Assembly (NCBI GenBank): GCA_016188065.1
Contig: JACPIN010000014.1
Coordinates: 1-62,928, forward strand
DNA length: 62,928 nucleotides
Direction of reading: 5' to 3'
Source of the DNA: Candidatus Woesearchaeota archaeon
GTDB lineage: Archaea > Nanobdellota > Nanobdellia > SCGC-AAA011-G17 > ARS1403
Part shown: piece after piece, positions 1,175 through 62,928 of the stretch
How positions within the stretch are numbered: position 1 is the first letter of the stretch
Layout: each line of letters begins with the position of its first letter
Notes under the pieces: generated by a model
The model's database searches: none
What the model saw: only the letters and a program-made list of their open reading frames with translations
Told to the model about the DNA's origin: nothing
Translations under genes and position numbers: made by a program

Positions 1175-1501
1175 TTATCTGTCAGCTAATTTCTCATACA
1201 CTGCTCTAATTTTCTTACGTGAATCATCAAGAAGTTCTATTCTCTCTGCACTTCTTTCCTGGATATTTCCTATTCCTAAATCATCAATATAGATGCGCAA
1301 TTGATCTCCATTGAAAATTGGTAATACCGTACTAATATATGCTCCACCAAACTCAACACTAGGAGTGCTTAATATATTTTTGCCATAATCGATCCTATTT
1401 TCCTCAAGATTTTGAATTACATCTGTTTTATACACGACTAGAAATTTTTCTACAACAATTGGAATATGAAAACTCCCATTAAAAACAGGTGAATCATTCA
1501 C
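1175..1501 (-). CDS. Hypothetical soluble protein
   Basis: A 108-residue protein opening with GTG at 1501. An in-frame stop lies just upstream and no ATG is available near the N-terminus. The sequence is a mix of strands and a helical C-terminus (AERIELLDDSRKKIRAVYEKLADR). It contains FGGAYISTVLPIF and LRIYIDDLGIG but no motif I can assign. It lies between hicB and a copy of the dispersed repeat, on the same strand as both hic genes. Confidence 0.45.
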   Translation of the reverse strand: MNDSPVFNGSFHIPIVVEKFLVVYKTDVIQNLEENRIDYGKNILSTPSVEFGGAYISTVLPIFNGDQLRIYIDDLGIGNIQERSAERIELLDDSRKKIRAVYEKLADR

Positions 1502-1604
1502 AACAGCTTCAAGAACAATTTATGCATTTCTCATACTCATAAAATTTCACGACCATAAAGAGGGTATATTCTTTATTGTTTTCTAATCTATATTTTTCTT
1601 TAAA

Positions 1605-1675
1605 CACGATTTCTTTTTCCCAAAAAAGAAAGTATGGGGGGGAAAGGTGGATGGAAAACGCAGTTGTCTCTATTT
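1605..1675 (+). repeat. Dispersed structured repeat, copy A
   Basis: The copy has an A/T hairpin (CACGATTTCTTTTT with AAAAAAGAAAGT) followed by a GGAAAGG box and the core hairpin at 1651-1673, whose arms begin ATGGAAAAC and GTTGTC around a GCA loop. Four other copies occur near 4.4, 27.9, 28.7 and 29.1 kb. It fills the gap downstream of the minus-strand gene ending at 1696. Confidence 0.7.
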
Positions 1676-1695
1676 AATTCAAAAAAATTAAAATT

Positions 1696-2262
1696 TTATT
1701 TAGCAACACAAGCCCCTTTACCGCATCCATCAGAGCATTCAACAACCTGTTTTAAGCAATGAACTTCGTCGACGTACTCATCATATCCGCAGTTATATTC
1801 TTTTAAGCTATTGAAATCGCAAAAGTCTTCAGCGCCGTCAGGATAAAATCTATCAGTGCATTTTCCTCGCAGGTAAATGTCTCCCGCATCAGTATCACTG
1901 CAAGTCTTTCCTTTCTTTGCTAAATTAATAATTCTTAATATTGCACCATCATCGCTGACAGCTATGCTTTCAATTTGCACATTGCTTATAATCCTGGCGC
2001 CGTATTCATTGACGCTTTTCCTAATGCCTTCAACATCGATAATGGCTTCATTGCTATCCCCGATGCTAACAAGCATCACTCCTGCATCGTCGATTATTTT
2101 TCTCTCGCCAACTCTAAATAAATATTCATCAAGATCAAGTTCAATCTCGCTCGCAACATTTCTGCTCGCTTGCCCGCTGAGTTGTACATTTTGAAAAATA
2201 AAAATTGCAAGAATGCCGATGATTACAAATCCAAGAATGGCAAAATCCCTCTTTTTGTCCAT
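1696..2262 (-). CDS. Membrane-anchored cysteine-rich exported protein
   Basis: A 188-residue protein with an N-terminal hydrophobic segment (ILGFVIIGILAIFIF, about residues 8-25), then an exported region. The C-terminal third has about ten cysteines, including CSDTD, FCDF, NCGY, HCLK, CSDGCGKGAC, suggesting disulfides outside the cell. I chose the ATG at 2262 because longer starts would run into the SRP RNA and give an unlikely N-terminus. It lies just downstream of the SRP RNA on the same strand. Function unknown. Confidence 0.6.
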   Translation of the reverse strand: MDKKRDFAILGFVIIGILAIFIFQNVQLSGQASRNVASEIELDLDEYLFRVGERKIIDDAGVMLVSIGDSNEAIIDVEGIRKSVNEYGARIISNVQIESIAVSDDGAILRIINLAKKGKTCSDTDAGDIYLRGKCTDRFYPDGAEDFCDFNSLKEYNCGYDEYVDEVHCLKQVVECSDGCGKGACVAK

Positions 2263-7951: not shown

Positions 7952-8716
7952 ATGAATATTAAAATTCTAAAAGAATCGCACGACAAGATAATCTATCATA
8001 TTTCTGATGCAGAGCTTTCATTGGTTAATGCTTTAAGAAGGTTGATCATGGAAGAAGTGCCGACAATAGCAATAGAAGATGCGACTTTTGTGAAAAATAG
8101 TTCTGCATTATATGATGAAGTAATTGCCCATAGGATGGGGTTGCTTCCGATGTCTTCAGATCTGAAATCATATAACTTCCAGGAAGAATGCAAATGTAAT
8201 GGAAAAGGATGCGCAAGATGCCAGGTAAAAATGACGCTTCAGGCAAAGGGGCCTTGCACAGTTTACGCATCAGATTTAAAGTCAAAAGACTCAAAAATAA
8301 AGCCCGTTTATCCGGAAACCCCAATCACAATTCTCCTAAAAGGCCAGGATCTTGAAATAGAAGCTACAGCAAAGCTTGGCAGGGGAAAGGAGCACTCAAA
8401 ATTCTCTCCAGGTTTAGCATATTATCGGTTCTACCCAACTCTAAAAACAACAAAGGATTCAAATCTGAAAAAATGTGCGGAGCTCTCTGACAATCTAGAA
8501 ATAAAAAGCAGCAAATTGGAAATAAAAGACATAACAAAATGGAATGAGGCGCAGGAGCAGATATGCGAAAAGAATAACGTCGTGGTAGAATACAGCAAGG
8601 AGGAGTTCATCTTCATAGTAGAGTCATGGGGTCAGTTAGACATCAAAAAAATTCCAGGCATAGCATTGGATATTTTCGGGCATAAATTAAAAGAGCTTGA
8701 AAAGCAAATTAAATAA
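7952..8716 (+). CDS. rpoD: RNA polymerase subunit D (Rpb3-like)
   Basis: Subunit D with subunit L forms the alpha-like assembly platform of archaeal RNA polymerase. The 254 residues contain the dimerisation region (SLVNALRRLIMEEVPTIAI, HRMGLLPM) and an inserted domain with the cysteines CKCNGKGCARC, consistent with the iron-sulfur cluster domain of many archaeal D subunits. The C-terminus VESWGQLDIKKI is typical. It is the last member of this part of the superoperon before the endonuclease insertion. Confidence 0.95.
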   Translation: MNIKILKESHDKIIYHISDAELSLVNALRRLIMEEVPTIAIEDATFVKNSSALYDEVIAHRMGLLPMSSDLKSYNFQEECKCNGKGCARCQVKMTLQAKGPCTVYASDLKSKDSKIKPVYPETPITILLKGQDLEIEATAKLGRGKEHSKFSPGLAYYRFYPTLKTTKDSNLKKCAELSDNLEIKSSKLEIKDITKWNEAQEQICEKNNVVVEYSKEEFIFIVESWGQLDIKKIPGIALDIFGHKLKELEKQIK

Positions 8717-8796
8717 TATTAATTCTAATAAATTTCATCTGACATACGCGCCAGATAGACATAAAAGATATAAAAACAAAAATAAATTCTTTCCTT

Positions 8797-9852
8797 ATGA
8801 AAATAATAAAAAATGAAAGGACCTCGGAAATAGTTGGATTAAGTTTTGGAGATGGAAGTCTAACTAGAAGGAAATCTGGCAAGAACAAAGGAAGTTTAAG
8901 GTTTCAATTAAGAGGACATATAACCGAAGATAGAGAACACTATGATTCATATATAAGACCTTTATTTAAGGAAACAATTGGTGAAGTACCAGTAATAACT
9001 GACAAAGGAAAAAATCAATCTTATGGTCTAAGTACTGGAAAAAATTTAACATGTACCTATTTATCTTTATTAGGAATTCCTATAGGAGTTAAAAAAGTAT
9101 TAAAAATCCCGGATTGGATTATTGAAAATAAAGAAAATGTTAAAGGGTTTCTAAGAGGATTCTTAGACACTGATGGGACAATATACTGTCAAAAAAATTA
9201 TTTACTAAAAAAGAATGAAAAACATACTCAAATAAGACTAAAATTAACTACAACTTCAAAAACTCTAGCAAAGGATATGAAGTTAATTCTAGACGGTTTC
9301 GGAATAAAAAACCTCTTAAAAGTACAAAAAAAGAAAAAATTAAATGAAAGAACATCTTATAGTATTGAAACATGCGGAGGAATTCAAATAGATAAGTGGT
9401 TTAAGATAATTGGTTCAAATAATCCAAAGCATATTACAAAGTACCTAGTGTGGAAAAAGTTTGGTTTCTGTCCTCCTTACACAATACTAGAAGAAAGAAA
9501 AAAAATCTTAAAAGGACAAATCAATCCAAATGATCATTATGCGGGAGTGCCGGAGTCTGGAAAACGGATACGGTCGAGGTCCGTATGGCTTAGTGCCTAC
9601 GCAGGTTCAAATCCTGTCTCCCGCAAATCACCATTTTCAACTATGAAAAAAATTAAAACAAAAACTCAAGGAACTCAATCTAAAAGAATTAAGTTAGCTG
9701 GAGCTATGAGAAAAGAAATTCTATTAAAAATAGAAAACCTTGAAAATATGATGAAAGGATTAAAATCGTCCATGAAAGACGAGACTATGATTAATATAAG
9801 AAAAGAGGGAAAAGAGTTAGTGCTTCTAATAAAAGAACTTTATAAAAAATGA
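8797..9852 (+). CDS. LAGLIDADG homing endonuclease, frame running through a tRNA gene
   Basis: Two LAGLIDADG helices are visible: IVGLSFGDGSL near residues 12-22 and LRGFLDTDGTI near residues 118-128, the layout of a single-chain homing endonuclease. The recognisable enzyme ends near residue 248 (ILKGQINPNDHY). No stop codon follows: the frame reads straight through tRNA-Leu (codons 249 onward, AGVPESGK) and into a 69-residue gene, stopping at 9852. Either the protein has a long odd tail or the native stop was lost on insertion before the tRNA. It splits rpoD from rpl18e. Confidence 0.75.
   Translation: MKIIKNERTSEIVGLSFGDGSLTRRKSGKNKGSLRFQLRGHITEDREHYDSYIRPLFKETIGEVPVITDKGKNQSYGLSTGKNLTCTYLSLLGIPIGVKKVLKIPDWIIENKENVKGFLRGFLDTDGTIYCQKNYLLKKNEKHTQIRLKLTTTSKTLAKDMKLILDGFGIKNLLKVQKKKKLNERTSYSIETCGGIQIDKWFKIIGSNNPKHITKYLVWKKFGFCPPYTILEERKKILKGQINPNDHYAGVPESGKRIRSRSVWLSAYAGSNPVSRKSPFSTMKKIKTKTQGTQSKRIKLAGAMRKEILLKIENLENMMKGLKSSMKDETMINIRKEGKELVLLIKELYKK
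9541..9625 (+). tRNA. tRNA-Leu, anticodon GAG
   Basis: An 85-nt class II tRNA. The acceptor GCGGGAG pairs with CTCCCGC, discriminator A at 9625. The D arm is CCG/CGG, the anticodon stem TACGG/CCGTA encloses the loop TCGAGGT (anticodon GAG), a variable arm GGC/GCC follows, and the T arm is GCAGG with loop TTCAAAT and CCTGT. No intron and no encoded CCA. A CTTAAAAG box about 30 nt upstream lies inside the endonuclease frame and may be its promoter. Confidence 0.95.
9643..9852 (+). CDS. Small basic helical protein, possible antitoxin-like partner
   Basis: A 69-residue Lys-rich protein starting at ATG 9643, 17 bp after tRNA-Leu and in frame with the endonuclease upstream. It is almost entirely helical (LLKIENLENMMKGLKSSMKD). 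Its stop overlaps the ATG of a DUF2283 gene by four bases, a spacing common in toxin-antitoxin pairs. I see no family motif. It may instead be only the tail of the 8797-9852 frame. Confidence 0.45.
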   Translation: MKKIKTKTQGTQSKRIKLAGAMRKEILLKIENLENMMKGLKSSMKDETMINIRKEGKELVLLIKELYKK

Positions 9853-10082
9853 AAGACAATATATATATTTACTATGATGAAGAAGGGGATTTCTTAGAAT
9901 TCAATACTGGCGAATATAAAAATGGATATTTCAGAGATGTTAAAGAAGGCATCTCAGAATGGATTGATGAAGAAACAGGAAAAGTAACTGGCTTTGCAAT
10001 CATGAGCTTCAGAAAAAGAATGGCAAAATTCCACAACATAAAGCTTAAACTGCCAGTAAAATTGGAAATGATTCCTGCTTAG
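9849..10082 (+). CDS. DUF2283 family protein
   Basis: A 77-residue protein with the DUF2283 strand pattern: IYIYYDEEGDFLEFNTGE at the start, then IDEETGKVTGFAIMSF. DUF2283 proteins are small, often paired with another small gene, and are considered likely antitoxin or toxin-associated components. The start overlaps the upstream gene by ATGA. A second DUF2283-like protein is at 28292. Confidence 0.7.
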   Translation: MKDNIYIYYDEEGDFLEFNTGEYKNGYFRDVKEGISEWIDEETGKVTGFAIMSFRKRMAKFHNIKLKLPVKLEMIPA

Positions 10083-10100
10083 TTGGTGGAAAAATAACAA

Positions 10101-10493
10101 TCATAAATCTTTTTCCCTCAAATGGAACTCAACTTTCATTCCTTCAGGATCTTGGGTAAAAATAGCAGTCCCTCCGAAATCGTCATCTGTAATTCCCCCT
10201 TCCTCCATAAAGACCTTCAGTTTTTTTAGTTTAGTCTCAATTTTCTTCAATTCTTCCATAGTCTTTACTTTAAATGCCCAATGGTCAAGACCTACATTAT
10301 TTCTATTAAATTTAAGGGGTTTTGGCAGGTTATCTCTTGGTAGCCCTAACCAAAAAGAAAAAGTGCCATCGGAGAGCCCAATATATTCTTTCTCCTCTAC
10401 AATTAGCCTCATGCCACAGATATTAACATAAAACTCTTTACACTCATCTAATTTATTAACAGTCAAGGTTATATGATCCACGCCTTTAGTCAT
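10101..10493 (-). CDS. VOC-superfamily (glyoxalase-like) protein
   Basis: A 130-residue single-domain vicinal oxygen chelate protein. It starts with DHITLTVNKLDECKEFYVN, the first strand-helix with a metal-binding His, has DHWAFKV in the second half and ends TQDPEGMKVEFH with a Glu in the expected metal position. It could be a lyase, dioxygenase or resistance protein; the substrate cannot be read from sequence. It is a single gene convergent with the DUF2283 gene. Confidence 0.8.
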   Translation of the reverse strand: MTKGVDHITLTVNKLDECKEFYVNICGMRLIVEEKEYIGLSDGTFSFWLGLPRDNLPKPLKFNRNNVGLDHWAFKVKTMEELKKIETKLKKLKVFMEEGGITDDDFGGTAIFTQDPEGMKVEFHLREKDL

Positions 10494-10556
10494 GATTACT
10501 TATTTAATAGTTGATGATTTATATTTTTTTGGATTTCAAAACACCCGATAGAAAAT

Positions 10557-10565
10557 CTTTTAAAC
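10557..10565 (+). promoter_or_regulatory. TATA box of the rpl18e operon
   Basis: TCTTTTAAA about 26 nt before the rpl18e ATG at 10587. It provides a separate leaderless promoter for the rpl18e-rpl13-rps9 part now separated from rpoD. Confidence 0.5.
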
Positions 10566-10586
10566 AGCTTTTTATCAAAGTTTGTC

Positions 10587-10952
10587 ATGGTAAAAAGAAC
10601 AGGTCCAACAAATCCGCATTTGCAGAAGCTAATTATAGATTTAAAGAAGTTATCAGTCCAAAAGCAAGTCAAGCTATGGAAAAGGATAGCATTGGATTTG
10701 CAAAGGCCGACGAGGATAAGAAGAAAAGTTAATCTCTACAAAGTTGAAAGATATTTGAGAAATGGAGAGACAGCCCTAGTTCCAGGCAAATTATTATCAT
10801 TAGGAAATTTAACAAAGAAAATAGAAATAGCAGCATACCAGGCATCAGATCAGGCAAAAAAAAAGATACAAGAGTCAGGCTCTAAATTTTTGACTATACA
10901 GGAATTGATGACAAAAAATCCGCATGGGAAAAAAGTGAGGATTATAGGTTAA
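10587..10952 (+). CDS. rpl18e: Large ribosomal subunit protein eL18
   Basis: eL18 is an archaeal/eukaryotic large-subunit protein. The 121 residues have the family start (KRTGPTNPHLQKLIIDLK), the NLYKVERY segment, the central VPGKLLSLGNLTKKIEIAAY and the C-terminal NPHGKKVRIIG. Length is normal. It opens the second operon fragment and is followed one base later by an unknown small gene. Confidence 0.95.
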   Translation: MVKRTGPTNPHLQKLIIDLKKLSVQKQVKLWKRIALDLQRPTRIRRKVNLYKVERYLRNGETALVPGKLLSLGNLTKKIEIAAYQASDQAKKKIQESGSKFLTIQELMTKNPHGKKVRIIG

Positions 10953-10953
10953 G

Positions 10954-11178
10954 ATGAGGCTTTATTATAATAATGACATAGGTTTGGAAGAAGAAACAGA
11001 TTGCTCTTATCAATTTGATTTACCAGCAGCAGACCCTTTAGAAATAAGGATTAAAGAGGTCAATCTTGTTAGGGAAAGGTTTACACCAAGGCCATATGAT
11101 ATAACTCCCGGCGAGATATTTGCCCTGGACTACGCTGAAAAAATAATTGCAAGGCTTAAAAATGATAATCAACGCTAA
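10954..11178 (+). CDS. Unknown small protein between rpl18e and rpl13
   Basis: A 74-residue acidic protein starting one base after rpl18e and overlapping the start of rpl13 by 17 bp, so it is translated within the ribosomal operon. It begins MRLYYNNDIGLEEETDCSY, with a central RFTPRPYDITPGEIFALDY and a helical end. Most archaea have no gene here. I find no zinc motif and no match to RpoN, the nearest expected gene. Confidence 0.6.
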   Translation: MRLYYNNDIGLEEETDCSYQFDLPAADPLEIRIKEVNLVRERFTPRPYDITPGEIFALDYAEKIIARLKNDNQR

Positions 11179-11578
11179 AGATTTGATACTGGGAAGATTA
11201 GGGGCTTTTGTAGCAAAGAAAGCGCTTTTAGGAGAAGAAATAAAAATAGTTAATTGCAAGGATGCAGTCATAGTAGGAAAAAAAGACGTCGTGATAAATA
11301 GATATAAGAAAAAACAAAGGAGAACAACGCCAAGAAAAGGGCCATTTATTCCAAAGACTTCAGACAGGTTTGTAAAAAGAACGATTAGAGGAATGCTTCC
11401 ATATAAAAAAGGAAGGGGGAGAGACGCATTTAAAAGAATTATCTGCTATAAGTCAGTACCAGAAAGCCTTAAAAACAAGGAAATCATTAATATGGACAGC
11501 TATAATGTCCTGCAAACAAACAATGAGAATTTCATAAGGGTGGAAGAGATCTGCAGGCAATTGGGGGGAAAAGAATGA
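11162..11578 (+). CDS. rpl13: Large ribosomal subunit protein uL13
   Basis: An early-assembling large-subunit protein. The sequence opens MIINAKDLILGRLGAFVAK, with GPFIPKTSDRFVKRTIRGML and PYKKGRGRDAFKRI following, all typical of archaeal uL13. I chose ATG 11162; a TTG at 11147 is possible but extends beyond the family start. It overlaps the unknown gene upstream by 17 bp and rps9 downstream by 4 bp. Confidence 0.95.
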   Translation: MIINAKDLILGRLGAFVAKKALLGEEIKIVNCKDAVIVGKKDVVINRYKKKQRRTTPRKGPFIPKTSDRFVKRTIRGMLPYKKGRGRDAFKRIICYKSVPESLKNKEIINMDSYNVLQTNNENFIRVEEICRQLGGKE

Positions 11579-11979
11579 AAGCAATCCACGTCTCTGGAAA
11601 GAGAAAAAGCTCAGTTGCAAGAGCTACTTTAAAAGAGGGCGACGGGGTTATAAGGATAAACAATCAACTTTTAGCGCATTTCAGCAACAAGATGGCCAGA
11701 GAAAGGATCAATGAGCCGCTGAAGATTGCAGGAATGGAAACTGTGCAGAAAGTCAGCTTCGATATTAATGTGAACGGCGGAGGATGGCAGTCGCAGACAG
11801 AAGCAGTCAGGCTGGCAATTGCACGAGCATTAGTTACATACACAAAGTCAGACAAGCTAAAGCGGGACTTTTTGAATTATGACAGGCATTTGCTAATTGC
11901 AGACACTCGAAGAAACGAGACGAGCAAGCCGAATGATTCAGGAAAGCCAAGAAAAAAGCGCCAGAAAAGTTACCGTTAG
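11575..11979 (+). CDS. rps9: Small ribosomal subunit protein uS9
   Basis: uS9 reaches the P-site tRNA with its basic tail. The 134 residues have VSGKRKSSVARATLKEGDG at the start, NVNGGGWQSQTEAVRLAIAR in the core and the invariant end RKKRQKSYR, including the terminal arginine. ATGA overlap with rpl13. In other archaea rpoN follows directly; here a poly-T stretch follows and rpoN lies 2.6 kb further on. Confidence 0.96.
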   Translation: MKAIHVSGKRKSSVARATLKEGDGVIRINNQLLAHFSNKMARERINEPLKIAGMETVQKVSFDINVNGGGWQSQTEAVRLAIARALVTYTKSDKLKRDFLNYDRHLLIADTRRNETSKPNDSGKPRKKRQKSYR

Positions 11980-11990
11980 TAGCAAAGTAA

Positions 11991-12013
11991 TCTTTTCTTT
12001 TATTTTTTCTTTT
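11991..12013 (+). terminator. Poly-T transcription terminator after rps9
   Basis: A run of T-rich tracts (TCTTTTCTTT then TATTTTTTCTTT) starts 11 nt after the rps9 stop. Archaeal RNA polymerase terminates at such oligo-T tracts without a hairpin. Confidence 0.45.
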
Positions 12014-53456: not shown

Positions 53457-56357
53457 ATGAGTGAAGTTCCAAAAGACATAAAAAAAATAAATGAAGTAAC
53501 TTGGGAGATTCCAACTTCTTACAAGCAGGGCATGAATGTTCCAGCAAGAATTATAGCAACAGAATCTCTGTTAAAAGCAATGGACCCGGGGGTTTTCAAC
53601 CAGGTAACAAATGTGGCGACACTTCCAGGCATAGTTAAGTATTCAATATGCCATGCTGATGGTCATTGGGGCTACGGTTTTCCAATCGGCGGAGTTGCAG
53701 CATTCGATATTGAAGAAGGGGTTATCTCTCCAGGCGGAATTGGTTTCGATATTAATTGCGTTAGCCCTAAAACAAAAATTTTAATGGATTATGGTTACTA
53801 TAGAAAAATAAAAGATCTAAGAGAAGATCTTTCTAAAGAAAAGATTTCTTTTATTAGCCTAAAAAATAGAAAAAAAGAGAGTTCTCCTGCAGTTTTATTG
53901 CTAAAAAAAAAAGCCGATAATAATATTCTAAAGATAAAGACAAAATACGGGGAGGAAATAACTGTTTCAGAAGACCACCCACTGTTAACAAACAACGGAT
54001 TCGAAGAGGCAGGCAATTTGAGAAAGAAAAATGGGATTATCACTCATCCATTTGTCGGTGTCGAATATAAAAAACCTACAAAGAAAGTAATCTTAGATAG
54101 TAAAGATATAATAACTTTAATTGGAAACAGGAAGAAATTAATCAAAGAACTAAAACAGAAAAGACTATTGCCCTTAAAATTTAATTCTGAAAAACTCCCA
54201 ATTCTGGCTAAATTAGTTGGTTTTTTGACAGGGGATGGTTGGATAGGAACTTATTATTCCAAAAAAAGAAAGAGCGATATCTGGTCGATGAGAGTTATCG
54301 GCAAACTACAAGATTTAGGAGAGGTCAGAAACGACATTGCCAAACTGGGGTATATTGCAAACCATATTACAACTAAAGAGTATACTAGCAAATTAAAGGA
54401 AATTAATGGAGATGAAAGAAAGATATATGGAACATCTAATCAGTTATATCTCAACTCACAATCTCTTGCTGTGCTATTGCACGCGCTCGGTGTACCAAAA
54501 GGAAATAAGTCAAAAATTATTGTTAATGTTCCGATCTGGATTAAAAAAGCCCCCCTTTGGATTAAAAGGCTCTATTTAGCAGGCTTATTCGGAGCAGAAT
54601 TAAATAGGCCCTGCCAGAGAAAAGGAGAACCTTGCACATTTACAGAACCCAGTTTTAGTCAAAATAAAATAGATTCCCTAGAAAGAGAGAACTTGAATTT
54701 CATGTTAGAAATTACGAATCTCTTATTGGAATTCGGAGTCAATATTAACAAAGTTTACAAACAAAAAGTGGTTGTAAACGTTGATAGTGCACAAACACAT
54801 AAGCTAGCTCTTAGAATATCTGCAAAGCCTGAAAATCTGATTAATCTTTGGAGCAAAGTTGGTTATGAGTATTGCAAAGATAGGAAAGAAAGCTCAATGC
54901 TAGCTTTAGCTTATCTAAAATATAAGCAAAAAACACTTAAAAGAAAAACAATAGCTTCAGGTAAAAGTATTTCTATTAAGGAGAATAATGGCGAAATAAT
55001 GCTTATCACACAAATATCTGAAGATAGTTTCCCGACCTTCGCAGAATTTTCTGAAAAATCTAGAATAAAAGATTCTGAATTTATATCTGATGAAGTAGAG
55101 GAGATTGTCAAGTTAGATTACAGGGGAGATGTTTATGATCTAACGATGGATGACAAAAATCACAATTTCATTGCAAATTGTATAGTTTCACACAATTGTG
55201 GAATGCGCAGCATAGTAACAAATCTAACGCAGAAAGAAGTTCAGCCAAAGATAAAAGAACTGACAGATACCCTATTCAAGTTGGTTCCGGCAGGAGTTGG
55301 CTGTAAAGGATTTGTCAAGCTAACCAGATCAGAATTCAATGAAGTAATGTGTTCAGGCTCTAAATGGTGTGTAGAAAGGGGATATGGCTGGGAGGAAGAT
55401 CTAGAAGGAACAGAAGATTATGGAACATTAAAAGGCGCAAACCCAGAAAAAGTTTCAGAAAGAGCTATAAGCAGGGGGATTAGCCAGCTAGGAACATTAG
55501 GTTCTGGAAATCATTATCTTGAGATTCAAATAGCCCGCGCAGAAAATATCTACGATGAAAAAACCGCAAAGAAATTTGGAATAATCGATAAAGATCAAGT
55601 TATAATAACAACGCATTGTGGAAGCAGGGGATTTGGGCATCAAAATGCAACGGACTATCTTAAAGTGTTTGAAAGAATAATGAAAGAGCACAACATAAAA
55701 GTCTCTGATAGGGAATTATCATGTGCTCCATTCCAGACAAAAGAAGCTCAAGATTATTATTCTGCAATGAAGTGCTCAGGCAACATGGCATATGCAAACA
55801 GGCAGGTAATAATGCATAGAATTAGAGAGGCATTCAAGCAAGTTTTCAAAAAAGATCCAGAAAAATTAGGCATGCATCTAATCTACGATTGCACTCACAA
55901 TTTAGCAAGAGAGCATAAAATAAAGCTCGAAGGAAAAATGAAAAAAGTTTTAGTCCATCTAAAGGGAGCGACAACATCCGTCGGTCCTGGTTACGAAAGG
56001 CTAACTAGCAAATATGAAGAGACGGGCTCGCCGATAATCATCGGAGGCAGCATGGAAACCGGCTCATATTTAATGATGGGAACAAGAAAGGCAGAAGAAG
56101 AAACATTCGGAACAACAATACATGGGGCAGGAAGAACAATGTCAAGAACGAAAGCAAAGAGCGCAATTAGAGGAGAAAAGCTTCAGAAAGACATGGAAAA
56201 AAAAGGGATCTATGTCAGGGGAGTTTCAATGTCAGGGCTGGCGGAAGAAGCAGGATTTGCCTACAAAGATTTAACTGCAGTTGGAGACTCAGTAGAAAAA
56301 GCAGGAATTTCTAAAAGAATAGTTCTGCTAAAGCCAATTGGAAATGTGAAGGGATAG
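53457..56357 (+). CDS. rtcB: RNA ligase RtcB with an in-frame intein
   Basis: RtcB joins tRNA halves after intron removal, using GTP and a 3'-phosphate. The 966 residues contain about 486 of RtcB: SPGGIGFDIN before the intein; CGMRSIV, SGNHYLEIQ, HCGSRGFGHQN and HGAGRTMSRTKAKSAI after it. A 480-residue intein separates them. The catalytic Cys is the first residue after the intein, so the enzyme is active only after splicing. Archease is encoded convergently next to it. Confidence 0.94.
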   Translation: MSEVPKDIKKINEVTWEIPTSYKQGMNVPARIIATESLLKAMDPGVFNQVTNVATLPGIVKYSICHADGHWGYGFPIGGVAAFDIEEGVISPGGIGFDINCVSPKTKILMDYGYYRKIKDLREDLSKEKISFISLKNRKKESSPAVLLLKKKADNNILKIKTKYGEEITVSEDHPLLTNNGFEEAGNLRKKNGIITHPFVGVEYKKPTKKVILDSKDIITLIGNRKKLIKELKQKRLLPLKFNSEKLPILAKLVGFLTGDGWIGTYYSKKRKSDIWSMRVIGKLQDLGEVRNDIAKLGYIANHITTKEYTSKLKEINGDERKIYGTSNQLYLNSQSLAVLLHALGVPKGNKSKIIVNVPIWIKKAPLWIKRLYLAGLFGAELNRPCQRKGEPCTFTEPSFSQNKIDSLERENLNFMLEITNLLLEFGVNINKVYKQKVVVNVDSAQTHKLALRISAKPENLINLWSKVGYEYCKDRKESSMLALAYLKYKQKTLKRKTIASGKSISIKENNGEIMLITQISEDSFPTFAEFSEKSRIKDSEFISDEVEEIVKLDYRGDVYDLTMDDKNHNFIANCIVSHNCGMRSIVTNLTQKEVQPKIKELTDTLFKLVPAGVGCKGFVKLTRSEFNEVMCSGSKWCVERGYGWEEDLEGTEDYGTLKGANPEKVSERAISRGISQLGTLGSGNHYLEIQIARAENIYDEKTAKKFGIIDKDQVIITTHCGSRGFGHQNATDYLKVFERIMKEHNIKVSDRELSCAPFQTKEAQDYYSAMKCSGNMAYANRQVIMHRIREAFKQVFKKDPEKLGMHLIYDCTHNLAREHKIKLEGKMKKVLVHLKGATTSVGPGYERLTSKYEETGSPIIIGGSMETGSYLMMGTRKAEEETFGTTIHGAGRTMSRTKAKSAIRGEKLQKDMEKKGIYVRGVSMSGLAEEAGFAYKDLTAVGDSVEKAGISKRIVLLKPIGNVKG
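53757..55196 (+). other. Intein with LAGLIDADG endonuclease in RtcB
   Basis: The intein begins with Cys (codon 101) and ends with His-Asn just before the RtcB catalytic Cys. Its N-terminal splicing block is CVSPKTKILMDYGYY and the B block has SEDHPLLTNNG. The endonuclease helices are LVGFLTGDGWIG (about residue 252) and LYLAGLFGAEL (about residue 371). The C-terminal block is YDLTMDDKNHNFIANC. It therefore looks able to splice and home. Length 1440 nt. Confidence 0.93.
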
Positions 56358-57367: not shown

Positions 57368-57560
57368 AGTATTCATATGAACATACATATATATAAATTC
57401 TTCCATACAAAATGCAGTGAATATAAGTATTATTTAAAGTATTAAAAATAATATAAATCATAATATATTAATAAGGTATAAAAACAGTATTAAAATAATA
57501 ATATAGAAAAGTATATAAATAAGTTTATAGATAAGTAATCAATATGCCATATTTTGACAC

Positions 57561-57636
57561 CGTGAGAATCAGTTTGCTAGGCATCAAAAACACACCTCAG
57601 TCCCTGGATCCCCCTTCAGGGGCTTTTATTCTCACG
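57561..57636. repeat. Long-range inverted repeat enclosing a GC hairpin
   Basis: CGTGAGAAT at 57561-57569 is perfectly matched by ATTCTCACG at 57628-57636. Inside is CCCCTTCAGGGG (57611-57622), a hairpin with a TTCA loop. The very AT-rich surroundings make this GC structure stand out. The 57407-57686 stretch otherwise holds only several TATA-like boxes. It resembles the end of an IS200/IS605-type or palindromic element, or a small RNA gene. Confidence 0.45.
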
Positions 57637-57686
57637 CAAATTTCAATTCATTTTCAATTCAAATCATTTTTTCGAGGCTTAACTGG

Positions 57687-57857
57687 ATGGAATTAAAGAG
57701 AAAAATCTACAAGAGAGGAAGCAGCTATGAAACAACAATCCCTATGCCTCTGCTTTTCGCATTGGATATGAAAAAAAAGCACAATATAGTTTTCAAATTT
57801 GTCCCAAAACAAAATCGCTGGTACATAGGCTTCGAAGAAGCAAGGGGTGCAGCATGA
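57687..57857 (+). CDS. AbrB/SpoVT-like small DNA-binding protein
   Basis: A 56-residue protein, YKRGSSYETTIPMPLLFALD then NIVFKFVPKQNRWYI, with the archaeal AbrB pattern of a swapped-hairpin DNA-binding domain. It ends FEEARGAA and overlaps the next, broken, secreted-protein gene by ATGA. The ORF6N gene at 61475 ends with the same RGAA before an intact copy, so this upstream-regulator layout is repeated. Confidence 0.7.
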   Translation: MELKRKIYKRGSSYETTIPMPLLFALDMKKKHNIVFKFVPKQNRWYIGFEEARGAA

Positions 57858-58096
57858 AAACCGCTAATCTGATTTTACTTTCAATAGCATTTTTGATAAT
57901 GCTCATGCAATATTAGCAAAAAAAAACAGGCTTGCTCGGCTTGACCCTCGACGTGAAAGAATCCGGAATAGATGTAGATAATGTTAGCATCACAGTAGAA
58001 ATCTACGACGCAGCAACAGGAGGAAATCTGATTTACAACTCTCAAAATATTTGCATAAAAAATATGGCTAAAATAAAGGGGTTCAAGTATGGATAA
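57854..58096 (+). pseudogene. Secreted-protein 5' cassette, copy 1 (broken)
   Basis: ATG 57854 starts a signal peptide (LILLSIAFLIMLMQY) that hits a TAG after 20 codons. The downstream module at 57932-58042 (LLGLTLDVKESGIDVDN and ITVEIYDAATGGNLIYNS) is in another frame and ends QNICIKNMAKIKGF, then a stop overlapping the next ATG. It is almost the same as copies 3 and 4, so the break is recent. Confidence 0.75.
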
Positions 58097-58160
58097 AAAA
58101 GAGCTAAACTTCATTCTGCAGGAAGGAGAAGGGTTAAATCTGAAGTTTAAAGGTGCCAAT
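58089..58160 (+). pseudogene. Fragment of an AlbA-like (Schlafen/AAA_4) N-terminus
   Basis: MDKKELNFILQEGEGLNLKF resembles the start of an AlbA_2/AAA_4 protein. The reading frame continues to 58928 but from about 58165 onward it is the reverse of the PIN/antitoxin genes and is not credible protein. The frame ends YKIFEEVADE, which may be the rest of the same gene. The TA pair therefore seems to sit inside it. Confidence 0.35.
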
Positions 58161-58168
58161 AAAGAGGA

Positions 58169-58597
58169 TTACTTTAACGATTCAAATTCTTCAAGAAGTT
58201 CAGGAGTATTAAATATTTTAACTTTAAATTGTCTCTTTAATCTTTTCTCTCCAGACCAAATAGGACAATTCAAAGAAAGCGCAACAGCAAAGTATGGTAT
58301 ATCTTTTTCATGCGGAGAAATTTTTTTGGCTTTAGATAGGAATTTAGAAAACTCAGAAACAGAAACAGATTTAATCCTCAATTTAATAATTCCGACAAAG
58401 ATATTAAAATCAGTATCGGAAAATCCAGACTTTGATTTAATTTCGGTTTCATTTTTCTCAAGTTCGCGAAATAACAAAGAAGGAGCAAATAATTTAATTT
58501 TCTCAGAGAATAATATATCAAGCTTCTTGGTTTGTCTTCCAACGCCTTTAGACATTATCGCAGAGAATAGCTCATTAGCATCAATAACAAGTTTCAT
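58169..58597 (-). CDS. PIN-domain toxin
   Basis: A 142-residue PIN-domain nuclease. It begins MKLVIDANELFSAIMSKGVG with the first acid, has LLFRELEKNETEI for the second and HEKDIPYFAVALSLNCPIWS for the third, near WSGEKRLK. The antitoxin ends exactly at its start. The pair lies on the strand opposite to the interrupted secreted-protein region. Confidence 0.8.
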   Translation of the reverse strand: MKLVIDANELFSAIMSKGVGRQTKKLDILFSEKIKLFAPSLLFRELEKNETEIKSKSGFSDTDFNIFVGIIKLRIKSVSVSEFSKFLSKAKKISPHEKDIPYFAVALSLNCPIWSGEKRLKRQFKVKIFNTPELLEEFESLK

Positions 58598-58861
58598 TTA
58601 CAATTCAGGAAACTCAGATTTAAGCTCATTGAGCATGCCTGTATTTATTTTATCTGCTAATTCCATTGCATCAACCCCAGAAAGTTTGCTCTTATTAGTA
58701 AGAGATTCGAATACAGCTCTCTGTAATGCTATTGATTTAGAAAGTTGTATTTCAAATAATTTTGCTGTTAGAAATTTTCTAACCAACTTAGGCCAGTCTA
58801 TATTAGATTCTTCTAAATCTTCCTTGACTTCATCAGGAATTTTAATTATAAATTCAGCCAT
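58598..58861 (-). CDS. Antitoxin of the PIN pair
   Basis: An antitoxin of 87 residues, AEFIIKIPDEVKEDLEESNI then DWPKLVRKFL, as in archaeal antitoxins next to PIN toxins. I start it at ATG 58861 (MAEF); a TATA-like TTTATAAACT lies about 40 nt upstream. Its C-terminal MELADKINTGMLNELK resembles the helices of the protein at 60490, suggesting related toxin-binding ends. Confidence 0.75.
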   Translation of the reverse strand: MAEFIIKIPDEVKEDLEESNIDWPKLVRKFLTAKLFEIQLSKSIALQRAVFESLTNKSKLSGVDAMELADKINTGMLNELKSEFPEL

Positions 58862-58920
58862 CTTAACACCAGACAAGATTAACCAAGTTCAAGTTTATAA
58901 AATTTTCGAAGAGGTGGCAG

Positions 58921-59141
58921 ATGAGTAAATTAAAGCCGATAGTTACAATCACTTTGATTTTATTATTTTCATATTCAATAGCAGCGGCAGAAATCGATTT
59001 ATTAGGCTTGACTCTCGACGTGAAAGAATCGGGATAGATGTAGATAAGATTAACATCGTAGTGAAAATCTACAGTGAAGATATAGTTAACGACACAAATA
59101 ATTTGAAGGAGGGAGATATAAATAGACAATTGTCAATTTAA
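58921..59141 (+). pseudogene. Secreted-protein 5' cassette, copy 2 (one-base deletion)
   Basis: ATG 58921 starts a good signal peptide (VTITLILLFSYSIAAAE) and module (LLGLTLDVKESG), then TAG: one A is missing compared with copies 1, 3 and 4. In the next frame it continues IDVDKINIVVKIYSEDIVND and stops at 59141. The divergent second half lies after the usual break point. Confidence 0.75.
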
Positions 59142-59190
59142 ATGGACAATCGTCCAGAAAGATGGACAACTATAAAGAAAGACGGACAAA
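59116..59190 (+). promoter_or_regulatory. TATA box with four phased GACAA boxes
   Basis: TATAAATAG at about 59117-59124 is followed by GACAA boxes at 59125, 59145, 59165 and 59184, spaced 19-20 bp (two helical turns). Two of them form palindromes, GACAATTGTC and TGGACAATCGTCCA. They look like operator repeats for the HTH protein encoded just downstream. Confidence 0.45.
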
Positions 59191-59656
59191 ATAATAAAGA
59201 TCTTTTTGGAAGACACGGTAAAAGAATTCCATGTCAGTGAGCTGGCCAGATTAACTAAGATGTCCCCGACTACGATATCAAATCATCTGAATAATCTCAA
59301 AAAAAAGGGCTTGTACTCTAAGAAAAGAAAGGGATCATAGCCTATTCAGGGCAAATACAAAGTCAGAAGAATTTGATTATTTAGAGGATAAGCTAAATCA
59401 CCTTGAAGCAATAATTCTCTTTGGGTCGTTTAGGAAGGGTGAAGATATAGAAAGAAGCGATATAGACATTGCAATAATTACTCAGATTAAAGATATGCCT
59501 GATCTAAATAGATTTGAGAAAATTTTGCATCATAAAGTAAGCTTGTTCTTGTTTTCAAGGGAGAGAATAGAAAAGATGAAAGTAGGGAACAAAGAATTGC
59601 TCAATAATCTAGTTAACGGAATTATATTAAGAGGATTTTGGGAGTTGTTCAGATGA
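59142..59656 (+). pseudogene. Decayed HTH-nucleotidyltransferase (MNT-type antitoxin)
   Basis: Separate frames spell a helix-turn-helix (FHVSELARLTKMSPTTISNH) and a minimal nucleotidyltransferase (ILFGSFRKGEDIERSDIDIA with the GSF and DID metal motif). At least two one-base shifts (near 59332 and 59342) and a lost N-terminal start break it. MNT proteins inactivate HEPN toxins. It overlaps the HEPN start by ATGA. Confidence 0.75.
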
Positions 59657-59915
59657 GATTTGAAGAATACATTAAAAGAAAAATTGTGAAAAGAATAACA
59701 AAAGATAATCAATTAATCAAGTCTATAATAAAAACAGCAGAGTTTAATCTTAAATTCTTTGAAAAAAGTGAAATAACTAAAGAATCATCAAGAAAAATAG
59801 TATCAAATTATACGATATTTTAAGAGAGTTATTGGAAGCTATAGCAAATAATGATAACTACGAGCTACATTCACATGAAGCTTTTGTTCAATACCTTAAA
59901 GAAATATCAAATTGA
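59653..59915 (+). pseudogene. Decayed HEPN-domain toxin
   Basis: Begins MRFEEYIKRKIVKRITKDNQ and reads as a HEPN helix bundle up to SSRKIVSN, then a one-base shift near 59810 and the remainder YDILRELLEAIANNDNYELH to EISN at 59915. The usual RxxxxH RNase motif is not seen. With the MNT gene it is an inactivated MNT/HEPN pair. Confidence 0.65.
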
Positions 59916-60047
59916 AGATTACCAAGTTATATTTATAATATTGTAACAATACTTTAAAGGTACTTAATAAATAACGTAAAGATATATAAATAGATATATT
60001 TAAATATTGAAAAGATATTCTAACAATACTCTATAAGAAGAAATACC

Positions 60048-60512
60048 ATGCCTAAATCAAAAAAGGTCATCATAGATTTGGATGTAGTGACATTGGCTTT
60101 CTGGGACAAAAAGGACGGGGCAAAATTAATAGAAAGGATAAAAGCGAATGAATTTGAGATGATTTCTCCATACATCCTACTAGATCACCTATCAAAATGG
60201 GATTACAGAAAACTAGCAGAAGAAATAAGGGAATTTTATGAAAAATACTCGTCAGAAATCATAACTGCAAGAAATTTATTAGAAAAGACTGAAGAAATAA
60301 ATATAGAGTATTACAAAATATTAAATGAATTAATTAGTATCGGTGTAAAAGAAGAAGATGTTGTGTTAGTCATAATCTCTAGTTTGTTTAATGTAGATAA
60401 TCTAATCACATTCAACAGAAAACACCTGAAAAATAAAGAAAAAGAAATAGGAGAAGTCTTAAAAAGATATGGAATTAAAACAATTCAAATCAAGCTGCCC
60501 TCAGAGGTCTAA
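60048..60512 (+). CDS. PIN-domain protein
   Basis: A 154-residue PIN-type nuclease: SKKVIIDLDVVTLAFWDKKD at the start, then ISPYILLDHLSKWDYRKLAE and EEDVVLVIISSLFNVDNLIT for the later acids. It is preceded by AT-rich DNA with repeated TAACAATACT (about 59945 and 60024) and a TATA box. It begins with the same codons, MPKSKK, as the gene at 60794. The gene at 60490 on the other strand overlaps its end by 23 bp and is a candidate partner. Confidence 0.75.
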   Translation: MPKSKKVIIDLDVVTLAFWDKKDGAKLIERIKANEFEMISPYILLDHLSKWDYRKLAEEIREFYEKYSSEIITARNLLEKTEEINIEYYKILNELISIGVKEEDVVLVIISSLFNVDNLITFNRKHLKNKEKEIGEVLKRYGIKTIQIKLPSEV

Positions 60513-60756
60513 ACCTAGCGGATTTAAGCTCTTTGAGATCATTCAAGACTTCGATAGACATTCCGCTCTTTATCCAATCAGCAATCATAATTGCTTCTTT
60601 TTTAGTTATGGTGCTTTTATTTTTCATTTTGCTAATTTTTATAGAAGTCCTTTCCAATTTATCAATATCTCTCATAACCCTCATAGTCATGCCTTTTTTA
60701 ATTTCATCGGCAAGTTCAATCAATTCACCAGTTGTCATAATTTTTGGATTTTTCAT
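60490..60756 (-). CDS. Small helical protein with a duplicated antitoxin-like motif
   Basis: An 88-residue protein with two related halves, ELADEIKKGMTMRVMRDIDK and IADWIKSGMSIEVLNDLKEL. The motif ADxIKxGM is also in the antitoxin at 58598, so it may bind PIN toxins. It is convergent with the PIN gene (23 bp overlap), an unusual layout for a toxin and its antitoxin. No DNA-binding domain is apparent. Confidence 0.55.
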   Translation of the reverse strand: MKNPKIMTTGELIELADEIKKGMTMRVMRDIDKLERTSIKISKMKNKSTITKKEAIMIADWIKSGMSIEVLNDLKELKSARFRPLRAA

Positions 60757-60793
60757 ACTAAGATAATTAGTTGGAGGTTTAAAAATCTTTCCA

Positions 60794-61153
60794 ATGCCTA
60801 AATCAAAAAAGAGGGAGATGGTGCACGTTTATCTTACACCAGAAGAAAAATCCAGAACAGAATCCGAAGCAAAAAAGATTGGAATATCTGTCTCTTCCTA
60901 TATAAAAGTCAAATTATTTTCAAAAAATATAGCAGTTATGCTCGCTTTTATAATCCTGGGGTTAGCTGCTTCAGAAAAAGTAGCAGCGGCAGAAATCGAC
61001 TTGCTCGGCTTAACTCTCGATGTGAAAGAATCCGGAATAGACGTAGACAATGTCAACATCACAGTGGAAATCTACGACGCAGCAGCTGCAGGCAATTTGA
61101 TTTACAATTCAAGCAGTGGTCTTGCAAAGAAAAATAGTGGGATTAAAAAATGA
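60794..61153 (+). CDS. RHH domain fused to secreted-protein cassette, copy 3
   Basis: The first 45 residues are a ribbon-helix-helix antitoxin-like domain (VHVYLTPEEKSRTESEAKKI, then SVSSYIKVKLF). A signal peptide (NIAVMLAFIILGLAASE) and the shared module (60988-61117, LLGLTLDVKESGID) follow in the same frame, then a short SSGLAKKNSG end. The fusion looks like recombination between a regulator and a cassette; a signal after an RHH domain would not export normally. The stop overlaps the ATG of the next ORF6N gene. Confidence 0.7.
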   Translation: MPKSKKREMVHVYLTPEEKSRTESEAKKIGISVSSYIKVKLFSKNIAVMLAFIILGLAASEKVAAAEIDLLGLTLDVKESGIDVDNVNITVEIYDAAAAGNLIYNSSSGLAKKNSGIKK

Positions 61154-61464
61154 ATAAAAGATTGGCAGTCTTTAATCAGGAAGAGATCAAAAGAAAGATT
61201 TACACTATTCGTGAATTGCAGATAATGTTTGACAGGGATTTAGCTGGGCTTTATAGCATTGAAACAAGGGTTTTGAAGCAAGCAGTAAATAGAAACAAAA
61301 AAAGATTCCCGCCAGATTTCATGCTCCAATTAAATGATAAGGAAATTGGTTATTTGCTATCGCAAAATGCGATACCAGGTGATAATAATTTGAGGTTCCA
61401 AATCGGCACTTCAGATGTGAAAAAGGTATCACAAAATGTGATACCTCAGAGGCATTTTATTTGA
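61150..61464 (+). CDS. Truncated ORF6N-domain protein
   Basis: A 104-residue protein with the ORF6N DNA-binding domain (YTIRELQIMFDRDLAGLYSI, RFPPDFMLQLNDKE). The domain normally runs on through PYAFTEQGVA, which is missing; the protein ends VSQNVIPQRHFI. It contains two palindromes with AAAAT loops. It is coupled to the fusion gene by ATGA. Confidence 0.7.
   Translation: MNKRLAVFNQEEIKRKIYTIRELQIMFDRDLAGLYSIETRVLKQAVNRNKKRFPPDFMLQLNDKEIGYLLSQNAIPGDNNLRFQIGTSDVKKVSQNVIPQRHFI
61424..61446. repeat. Palindrome with AAAAT loop in an ORF6N gene
   Basis: Arms of nine bases (AGGTATCAC/GTGATACCT) enclose AAAAT. A related palindrome with the same loop and different arms (TATCGC/GCGATA) is at 61358-61374 in the same gene. 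Confidence 0.5.
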
Positions 61465-61474
61465 GGCTAAAGAG

Positions 61475-62359
61475 ATGAATAAAGTGATTTCAACAGAATC
61501 AATCAAGGATAAAATTCATAATATCGGGGGAATCCAGGTCATTGTTGATACAGATTTGGCTATCCTTTATGGTGTTCCAACAAAAGCATTGAACCAGGCT
61601 GTCAAGAGGAATATTGAACGTTTTCCAACTGATTTTATGTTTCAGCTTACTAAAGATGAAAAAAATGAGCTGGTCACAAAATGTGACCACCTTAAACCAC
61701 TTAGATTTTCATCTACAATGCCTTATGTTTTTACAGAACAAGGTGTAGCAACACTTTCTGGTGTATTAAAGAGTAAAAAAGCGATTGAGGTAAATATCCA
61801 GATTATGAGGGCTTTTGTTGCTATGAGAAAGTTTTTATTAACTAATGCACAATTATTCCAAAGGATAGACAGAACTGAACAAAAGCTTTTAAAGCACGAT
61901 GACAAATTTGACCAGATATTTGATATAATACAAAGCAAAGGCATCAGTCCAGAAAAAGGAATATTTTTTGACGGTCAGATCTTTGATGCGCATAAGTTTT
62001 TTTCAGACATAATAAGAGCTGCCAATGCTTCAATTATTCTAATAGACAATTATATAGACGATTCGGTTTTAGCACTATTTACTAAGAGAAAGGAAAATGT
62101 GAATGTTACAATCTTTACTAAAGAAATATCAAAGCAATTATCCATGGATTTAAAGAAATACAATTCTCAGTATCCCCTTATTGAAGTTAAAGAATTCAAA
62201 AGATCTCACGACAGGTTTATGATCATAGATAACAGGGAAGTTTATCATTTCGGAGCTTCGCTGAAAGATTTAGGCAAAAAGTGGTTTGCCTTCTCTAAAT
62301 TCGACAAAGAAGCATTAGCTCTGCTTGATAAGTTAGAGCTAAGAAGAGGTGCAGCATGA
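61475..62359 (+). CDS. ORF6N protein with PLD-like C-terminal domain
   Basis: A 294-residue DNA-binding protein. The ORF6N domain reads IHNIGGIQVIVDTDLAILYG, then RFPTDFMFQLTKDE and PYVFTEQGVATLSGVLKS. The C-terminal half, INDNYIDDSV-like (IILIDNYIDDSVLALFTKR) and SHDRFMIIDNREVYHFGASL, matches the phospholipase-D-like domain with a single HxK-like motif found in this family. It ends with LRRGAA and overlaps the intact secreted gene, so it probably controls that gene. Confidence 0.82.
   Translation: MNKVISTESIKDKIHNIGGIQVIVDTDLAILYGVPTKALNQAVKRNIERFPTDFMFQLTKDEKNELVTKCDHLKPLRFSSTMPYVFTEQGVATLSGVLKSKKAIEVNIQIMRAFVAMRKFLLTNAQLFQRIDRTEQKLLKHDDKFDQIFDIIQSKGISPEKGIFFDGQIFDAHKFFSDIIRAANASIILIDNYIDDSVLALFTKRKENVNVTIFTKEISKQLSMDLKKYNSQYPLIEVKEFKRSHDRFMIIDNREVYHFGASLKDLGKKWFAFSKFDKEALALLDKLELRRGAA
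61671..61689. repeat. Palindrome with AAAAT loop in the second ORF6N gene
   Basis: TGGTCAC and GTGACCA enclose AAAAT at the position corresponding to the palindromes of the first ORF6N gene. Confidence 0.5.
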
Positions 62360-62928
62360 ATAATTATCTTAAACTTATTTTTGTAATGATAGCTGTATTT
62401 GCCACTTCATACATCGCACTGGCGGCAGAAATCGACTTGCTCGGCTTGACTTTGGATGTGAAAGAATCCGGAATAGACGTAGACAATGTCAACATAACAG
62501 TGGAAATCTACGATGCAGCAACAGGAGGAAATCTAATCTACAACTCAAGCGGCGGCTTTGAAAATAATGTTAGCAATGGGAAGGTGGATATTATATTAGG
62601 AGATGAAACTTCTGGCTATGAGCTAAATCTAACCTACGGAACAACTTATTATATGGAGCTAACAATAAATGGAACAGAGCTTGACTTCAATGGATTGGAA
62701 AGGCAGAAATTCCAGAGCATAGTCGGTAATATATCTCAAGCAAGATTAAACTTGACAGACACACTCTATACAAATGCATTAATACCGTATGGAAATTTAT
62801 CTTTTGATCTCGGCTCAGCTGAGAATTATTACAGAACAGCTTACATACAGACCTTAACTTTAGCTAACACTTTAGATTCAGGAAATATTTCAGACGTTTA
62901 TCTATTTAATACAGGAGACACAGCAACA
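62356..62928 (+). CDS. Secreted repeat-type surface protein, intact cassette copy 4 (partial)
   Basis: ATG 62356 overlaps the ORF6N stop. A signal peptide (LIFVMIAVFATSYIALA) leads to the shared module (62424-62550, LLGLTLDVKESGID, ending NLIYNSSG) and then SNGKVDIILGDETSGYELN, TYYMELTINGTELDFNGLER. The visible end, IPYGNLSFDLGSAENYYRTA then TLTLANTLDSGNIS, resembles tail-fibre/S74-like surface repeats. The frame is open to the window end. This is the only intact copy and the likely expressed one. Confidence 0.8.
   Translation, partial: MNNYLKLIFVMIAVFATSYIALAAEIDLLGLTLDVKESGIDVDNVNITVEIYDAATGGNLIYNSSGGFENNVSNGKVDIILGDETSGYELNLTYGTTYYMELTINGTELDFNGLERQKFQSIVGNISQARLNLTDTLYTNALIPYGNLSFDLGSAENYYRTAYIQTLTLANTLDSGNISDVYLFNTGDTAT

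Follow-up and report, generated by a model that had tools for sequence, protein, structure and literature searches.

A candidate 5'-end displacement array in front of a large secreted fiber-like protein gene of a Woesearchaeota archaeon

Introduction

Loci for contact-dependent growth inhibition (CDI) carry orphan cdiA-CT/cdiI modules that are displaced beside the intact gene for the large surface protein CdiA and are kept there by short homology. In Rhs C-terminal tip displacement arrays, an intact gene stands beside a row of dissociated fragments that share a conserved joint, differ in their variable part, and decay through frameshifts and stop codons (Jackson et al. 2009, PMC2935791). For these arrays, homologous recombination that passes through circular intermediates has been proposed, and the conserved core is evolutionarily decoupled from the variable part (PMC2935791). 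Here we analyze a 62,928-nt contig of Candidatus Woesearchaeota archaeon (JACPIN010000014.1 of assembly GCA_016188065.1; hereafter the window), one end of which carries repeated copies of the start of a gene for a secreted protein. We consider it probable (about 0.6 by our own estimate) that this locus is a 5'-end, or N-terminal, displacement array in front of a large secreted fiber-like protein gene. Its unit would be one passenger gene plus the first 190 to 210 nt of the surface gene; this partial copy is called the cassette, or head, and the remainder of the intact gene is called the body.

The locus resembles Rhs arrays in combining an intact gene with dissociated, decaying fragments that have a conserved joint and variable parts. 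However, the part displaced at this locus lies at the 5' end, comprises the signal peptide, the N-terminal domain, and the coupled upstream gene, and is moved upstream, whereas in Rhs the 3' toxin tip is displaced downstream. The host also differs, being a DPANN archaeon, and the variable parts are separate passenger genes rather than fused toxins. CDI modules consist of a C-terminal toxin with its immunity protein, in contrast to an N-terminal part displaced from a surface protein that has no fused toxin. Because there is no C-terminal toxin/immunity module, the locus is not a member of Rhs or CDI. With pilE/pilS, vlsE, and Mycoplasma MgPa it shares one expressed gene, partial copies with common homology, and mosaics, but in the array every partial copy is a 5' end coupled to another gene, and most are relics. 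Type I restriction operons may carry passengers between hsdM and hsdS (AlbA_2, ORF6N/KilA-N, DUF1016, and toxin-antitoxin [TA] genes) with start/stop overlaps; the passengers described here instead precede a secreted-protein gene, whose 5' end they carry as a copy. A literature search, with subscription journals outside its scope, yielded no equivalent of archaeal 5' cassette arrays, of TA genes in inteins, or of nested antisense TA genes.

Results

Cassettes and passengers in the window

The window is the entire contig C1 of a 0.88-Mb Woesearchaeales-type metagenome-assembled genome (MAG) of 26 contigs (G000), to which contigs C7, C12, C19 (L010), and C24 (L071) also belong. The nearest named relative, in the same genus, is Candidatus Woesearchaeota archaeon RIFCSPLOWO2_01_FULL_35_31 (G001), the MAG of a sister species. 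Copies of the cassette are labeled c1 to c4 on C1 and d1 to d3 on C12; e and f heads are in G001.

A preliminary description of the window had reported four secreted-protein modules. Modules of about 200 nt do lie at 57.85-58.05, 58.92-59.07, and 60.93-61.13 kb and from 62.356 kb to the contig end, and they resemble one another well beyond chance in blastn comparisons inside the contig (copy 3 versus copy 4, E=2e-41; copy 1 versus copy 4, E=2e-31; copy 2 versus copy 3, E=6e-17). The set is larger than these four: G000 has seven cassettes in total, and G001 also has seven. The features of the region are as follows.

57687-57857, plus strand: passenger 1, AbrB/PrlF-like open reading frame (ORF) of 56 amino acids (aa), weak match to PrlF_antitoxin (E=0.068)
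57854-58096, plus strand: cassette copy 1 (c1) of type A, signal peptide interrupted by an in-frame TAG
58089-58928, plus strand: remnant of passenger 2, an SLFN_AlbA_2 gene reduced to its first 21 codons, frame open antisense through a TA pair
58169-58597, minus strand: PIN_2 toxin (VapC-like), antisense within the passenger 2 frame (PF10130, E=1.6e-20)
58598-58876, minus strand: putative VapB-family antitoxin of the PIN_2 toxin (NF050799, E=5.7e-8; 33 bits, under the curated cutoff of 60)
58921-59072, plus strand: cassette copy 2 (c2) of type A, with a 1-nt deletion and a degraded 3' part
59206-59920, plus strand: broken remnants of ArsR-type HTH (HTH_5, E=1.5e-8), MNT nucleotidyltransferase, and HEPN-like ORFs, the latter two assigned by inspection only
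60048-60512, plus strand: PIN-like gene "PINa," 45% identical to a gene at the same locus in G006, a genome of another genus; no Pfam match over threshold
60490-60756, minus strand: putative antitoxin convergent with PINa, weak match to TIGR02293; a homologous remnant is present in G006
60794-61153, plus strand: RHH/NikA-like domain (PF21983, E=1.3e-6) fused in frame to copy 3 (c3), type A
61150-61464, plus strand: truncated ORF6N gene (PF10543, E=7.7e-21)
61475-62359, plus strand: passenger ORF6N protein (PF10543, E=9.5e-29), with a weak PLD-like call at its C terminus (PLDc_2, E=0.014, under its cutoff)
62356-62928, plus strand: cassette copy 4 (c4), with which the intact surface gene starts; overlaps C19 by exactly 141 bp
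62716-62928, plus strand: stretch near-identical to the C12 head d3, identity 55-69% before it and 97-100% after

The four-copy observation thus stood in part, with several of its details corrected. Copies 1 and 2 had both been called frameshifted; this is true of copy 2, in which the 1-nt deletion puts a TAG in frame, but copy 1 has its in-frame TAG without a net frameshift. Copy 3 is joined to an RHH domain as described, in an open fusion that ends in NLIYNSSSGLAKKN, and copy 4 is indeed the intact start of an open surface gene running off the contig. The overlap of each copy's ATG with the upstream gene was found at copies 1, 2, and 4, with similar joints (AAGGGGTGCAGCATGA, AAGAGGTGGCAGATGA, and AAGAGGTGCAGCATGA), but not at copy 3, which is fused in frame. 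Both passenger 1 and the ORF6N passenger end in RGAA and a stop codon overlapping the ATG of copies 1 and 4, respectively.

The reported loss of similarity after NLIYNSS holds within a few codons for copies 1 and 3, as it does for two of the three C12 copies, but not for copy 2, which is degraded before that point, or copy 4, which runs on as an intact gene. Copy 1 ends after NLIYNS with the leader QNICIKNMAKIKGFKYG. What had been described as an AlbA-like remnant before copy 2 is AlbA_2 only in its first 21 codons; the rest of the frame, which stays open up to the copy 2 ATG, is the antisense of the PIN_2 toxin and putative VapB antitoxin (58169-58876, minus strand), and no Pfam match was found on the plus strand of the remnant. 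In this pair a PIN-domain toxin directly follows a small antitoxin gene, as in type II (VapBC) TA systems.

Two heads linked to one body

Contig C12 (3747 bp) holds three more cassettes, each behind or between SLFN_AlbA_2/HATPase genes. Two types of head occur: C1 has type A (LLGLTLDVKESGIDVDN), and C12 has type B (MLSFEASLFDSSGDPINGN). C1, C12, and (reversed) C19 end in the same 141 bases, which we read as the probable signature of an assembly-graph fork with a word length of 141. Because C1 and C12 each run into C19 through this exact 141-bp overlap, heads c4 and d3 are both linked to one body, and window positions 62716 to 62928 are where these alternative heads meet the common body. The body on C19 has at least 1360 aa, with GNVGIGTT-type repeats and an intein. 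Pfam searches of the body proteins on C12 and C19 returned no toxin match, only intein domains. In a comparison of contig ends, the 5' end of C12 shared an overlap with no other contig.

The surface-gene body on C19 (445-4524, minus strand) includes an intein (PF14890, E=2e-23) that has an antisense PIN_2 TA pair (1421-2197, plus strand) in its middle, at the position expected of a homing endonuclease, together with two small membrane-protein-like ORFs, and the host frame is fully open. On C24 (4967-6319, minus strand) an AlbA_2 gene is flanked on both sides by genes for secreted proteins, with a start/stop overlap of 4 bases but without a duplicated head, an arrangement that is possibly the unduplicated starting state of such arrays.

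Divergence, mosaicism, and a chimeric gene

In pairwise comparisons of c1, c3, and c4, pS was 0.40 to 0.43, pN was 0.02 to 0.04, and dN/dS was 0.04 to 0.07. These dN/dS values indicate that the three copies were the fronts of functional genes for most of their history and underwent purifying selection before they were displaced. Judged from these ratios, the copies diverged while they were translated and selected, were functional until recently, and lost function later; they fit relics whose parent genes were once intact, either in other strains or elsewhere in the genome. In situ tandem duplication as the sole source of the heads was rejected on the same values.

Exchange between copies is visible on C12. 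The silent copy d1 is a patchwork of its neighbors d2 and d3, with 48 two-state sites falling into 6 runs, a clustering that none of 200,000 permutations equaled. The longest exact run common to d1 and d3 is 129 nt; since this is shorter than the inferred assembly word of 141, assembly collapse is no easy explanation for the patchwork. The mosaic d1 thus combines a silent head, d2, with a body-attached one, d3, and the exchange may have run either way.

Head d3 is of type B through its first 125 codons (codons 26 to 50 are 89% identical to G001 head e4 and 45% identical to the type-A head f2) and is 97 to 100% identical to c4 from about codon 126, whereas c4 is of type A throughout when compared with G001. 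By these comparisons, the gene starting with d3 is a chimera that changes sharply near codon 125 from a head of type B to a body of type A.

Joints and the same locus in relatives

Passengers of different kinds end on a common short sequence, AGAGGTGCAGCATGA or close to it, that carries the ribosome-binding site and start of the head. At their other end, heads stop within a few codons of NLIYNSS and are followed by a short leader, which is nearly identical in c1 (before AlbA_2) and in G001 head f1b (before ORF6N). The common end point could be explained without a site-specific enzyme if one original head/passenger junction had been multiplied by homologous recombination between heads.

At the same place in G001, rtcB-archease-VapBC-AbrB is followed by five type-B heads, with ORF6N, PINb, and DUF1016 as passengers and an RHH domain fused to the last head. 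The AbrB-like passenger 1 of the window has its orthologue there (86% identical). The rtcB locus thus has type-B heads in relatives and type A in the window behind the orthologous AbrB gene, which indicates that the head was exchanged while the upstream neighbor stayed. The AbrB/head junction is common to G000 and G001, the one sister species available for comparison, but the head behind it is of type A in G000 and of type B in G001. The preliminary description would have been contradicted by an identical arrangement in all strains; instead, the passengers differ at the same locus. The G001 relic head e3 holds an intein fragment of a body and thus was once part of a full gene.

G001 has a second array across C23 and C18, whose ends overlap by 98 bp, in the order RHH-AlbA_2-head-HTH-ORF6N-head-body. 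When its place in G000 was sought by flanking genes, the downstream genes were on C7 with no adjoining surface gene, and the upstream genes were not found by DNA search. The rtcB locus of G006 reads RHH-PINa-39-aa head fragment-PINb-surface gene, and its head-fragment/PINb junction matches one in G001. Other members of the family have a single head, often directly after a small RHH gene. In each of three sets, c1-c3 with c4, d1-d2 with d3, and e1-e3 with e4, an intact gene stands next to several dissociated partial copies that keep a common part and differ in their variable one, as in displacement arrays of the Rhs/CDI type.

The body-attached surface protein of G001 starts with an RHH domain fused to the signal-peptide region (L032, minus orientation, 9604-12000), like copy 3; this may possibly be a cytoplasmic DNA-binding head on the surface fiber. 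A G001 intein relic orthologous to the C19 intein contains an antisense DUF433-like/DUF5615 pair (L032, minus orientation, 8614-9510). The rtcB-archease pair is a conserved neighbor of the surface gene within the family, and in the window rtcB (53457-56357) has an in-frame intein (CVSP...VSHN). Upstream of the AbrB-like gene, positions 57560-57640 contain TCAGTCCCTGGATCCCCCTTCAGGGGCTTTTATT with a small hairpin and are partly kept in G001 as coding sequence for "TPQSLxPPSGAFIL"; an Rfam search for a conserved RNA in this interval gave no match.

Antisense toxin-antitoxin pairs in open frames

Ten of the 33 PIN_2 toxins examined in the order have one stop-free antisense frame, compared with 2.6 expected from synonymous reshuffling; the sample was not random, with three nested cases added by hand and close relatives included, so that P=1e-7 is too strong. 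Taken singly, the window pair was not significant (P=0.14), and the C19 intein pair was modestly so (P=0.012). PIN_2 toxins lie inside the host frames of the C19 intein (1360 aa open) and the window remnant and inside AlbA_2 genes, with two pairs in G006 and another case in G087 (819 aa, C-terminal half of AlbA_2 intact). The long open frames with nested antisense PIN_2 pairs include 58089-58928 of the window, L150 (3648-5426), L169 (644-3103), L156, L167, L175, and L176, and the nesting affects AlbA_2 genes of more than one family. The open antisense frames suggest that selection may keep the host gene or coupling frame readable. They may represent a separate finding.

Discussion

The cassette contains a Shine-Dalgarno sequence, which falls within the final codons of the passenger, followed by the signal peptide and some 40 codons of mature protein; in the displacement-array explanation it would serve as the region of homology for recombination. 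Passengers are of AbrB-like, SLFN_AlbA_2/HATPase, ORF6N, DUF1016, RHH, HTH, and PIN toxin-antitoxin kinds. Homologous recombination with neighboring units, a second array in the genome, or incoming DNA would insert or swap [passenger + head] units before one body. In the simplest form, a circle of cassette and passenger would be excised between two cassettes and would reenter a resident one through a single crossover, yielding passenger-head-passenger-head-body and passing on the same ancient junction after NLIYNSS each time. Only the last head would then be attached to the body, and upstream heads would be relics gathering stops, deletions, and further insertions. The repeated units with their conserved joint, the two heads on one body, the mosaic and chimeric copies, the trace of purifying selection from before displacement, and the different passengers in a sister species are observed features of these loci. 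The circle intermediate, RadA-type homologous recombination as the motor, and selection on the changed N terminus and coupled gene are what we infer from them.

It is possible that the locus reflects ordinary decay at an insertion hot spot for TA and passenger genes, the repeated starts being role-less tandem duplicates that insertion or slippage left behind. In its favor, copies 1 and 2 are broken, TA genes occupy the gaps, and AlbA_2 and ORF6N genes also precede unrelated genes with 4-base overlaps and no head duplication, as the C24 AlbA_2 gene does before a secreted protein. However, the low dN/dS indicates copies that were functional while diverging, mosaic d1 and chimera d3 show exchange, and the sister genome has the same architecture with other passengers, so this explanation is unlikely. 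A far smaller chance attaches to site-specific integrative elements that always enter just after NLIYNSS and restore the gene by supplying a new 5' end. Such elements would account for an end point that is the same within a few codons in c1, c3, d1, d2, and e1, and for each array unit terminating in a replacement start. Against them, no integrase or transposase was recognized in any unit, no constant core or target-site duplication was found across the junctions, and the copies are internally mosaic, as homologous recombination predicts. A viral origin was rejected, as no relative turned up in IMG/VR.

The preliminary description had interpreted the locus as a recombining cassette set and possibly a switch of surface-antigen or adhesin expression. 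Patchwork d1, chimera d3 (near codon 125), the one body with two heads, and the different passengers of relatives bear out the first part but not the second. In a switch, silent 5' cassettes would act either as donors or as alternative promoter/regulator starts, and the expressed body would receive them by exchange inside one lineage, as in antigenic or phase variation. One MAG does connect two heads to one body, silent d1 and body-attached d3 have patches in common, and many passengers are predicted to bind DNA. Yet several upstream genes are of nuclease or TA type, and passengers that include nucleases and TA pairs do not form one regulator set. Furthermore, the silent copies are mostly broken, and their divergence is old (pS of about 0.4). 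All copies are in direct orientation, inverted repeats at the locus amount to weak, chance-level pairs, and no recombinase was found among the matches to array genes. Direct repeats lead to loss by deletion rather than reversible inversion, and an invertible-promoter or shufflon-type switch was rejected because the repeats are direct only and no recombinase was recognized. Nothing in the analysis supports rapid switching, and an expression switch is improbable. The data fit exchange among strains and species rather than phase variation.

Several observations weigh against a displacement array. Of 103 genomes of the order, only G000, G001, and G006 bear arrays, the last in a minimal form. The cassettes are short, with divergence estimates resting on 22 to 36 codons. 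The fork of C1, C12, and C19 may represent two chromosomal loci, two strains, or a collapsed repeat. The passenger/leader joint varies, PINb and HTH interrupt cassettes at other points, and identical stretches of e1 and e3 suggest some simple duplication, so not every unit need stem from homologous recombination. Neither a circular form nor read-level variation nor expression was seen.

A bolder version of the displacement-array explanation is that [head + passenger] circles exist free in these archaeal populations, pass between cells, and time and again give a conserved surface fiber a new front, so that N terminus and coupled regulator, nuclease, or TA gene change together between coexisting strains. 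We regard this as doubtful. It would amount to a system of N-terminal exchange driven by homologous recombination, perhaps adapted to the recognition of partners or viruses.

In bacteria, it is the C-terminal ends of Rhs and CDI toxins that have known displacement arrays; the array proposed here would be their N-terminal mirror image in a minimal-genome archaeon. If the explanation is correct, the same recombination logic can exchange an export signal, the first surface domain, and a translationally coupled gene. Such an array may also explain breaks in metagenome assemblies at genes of this kind, and its fossil heads would be a genomic record of surface-protein change in archaea that are probably host dependent.

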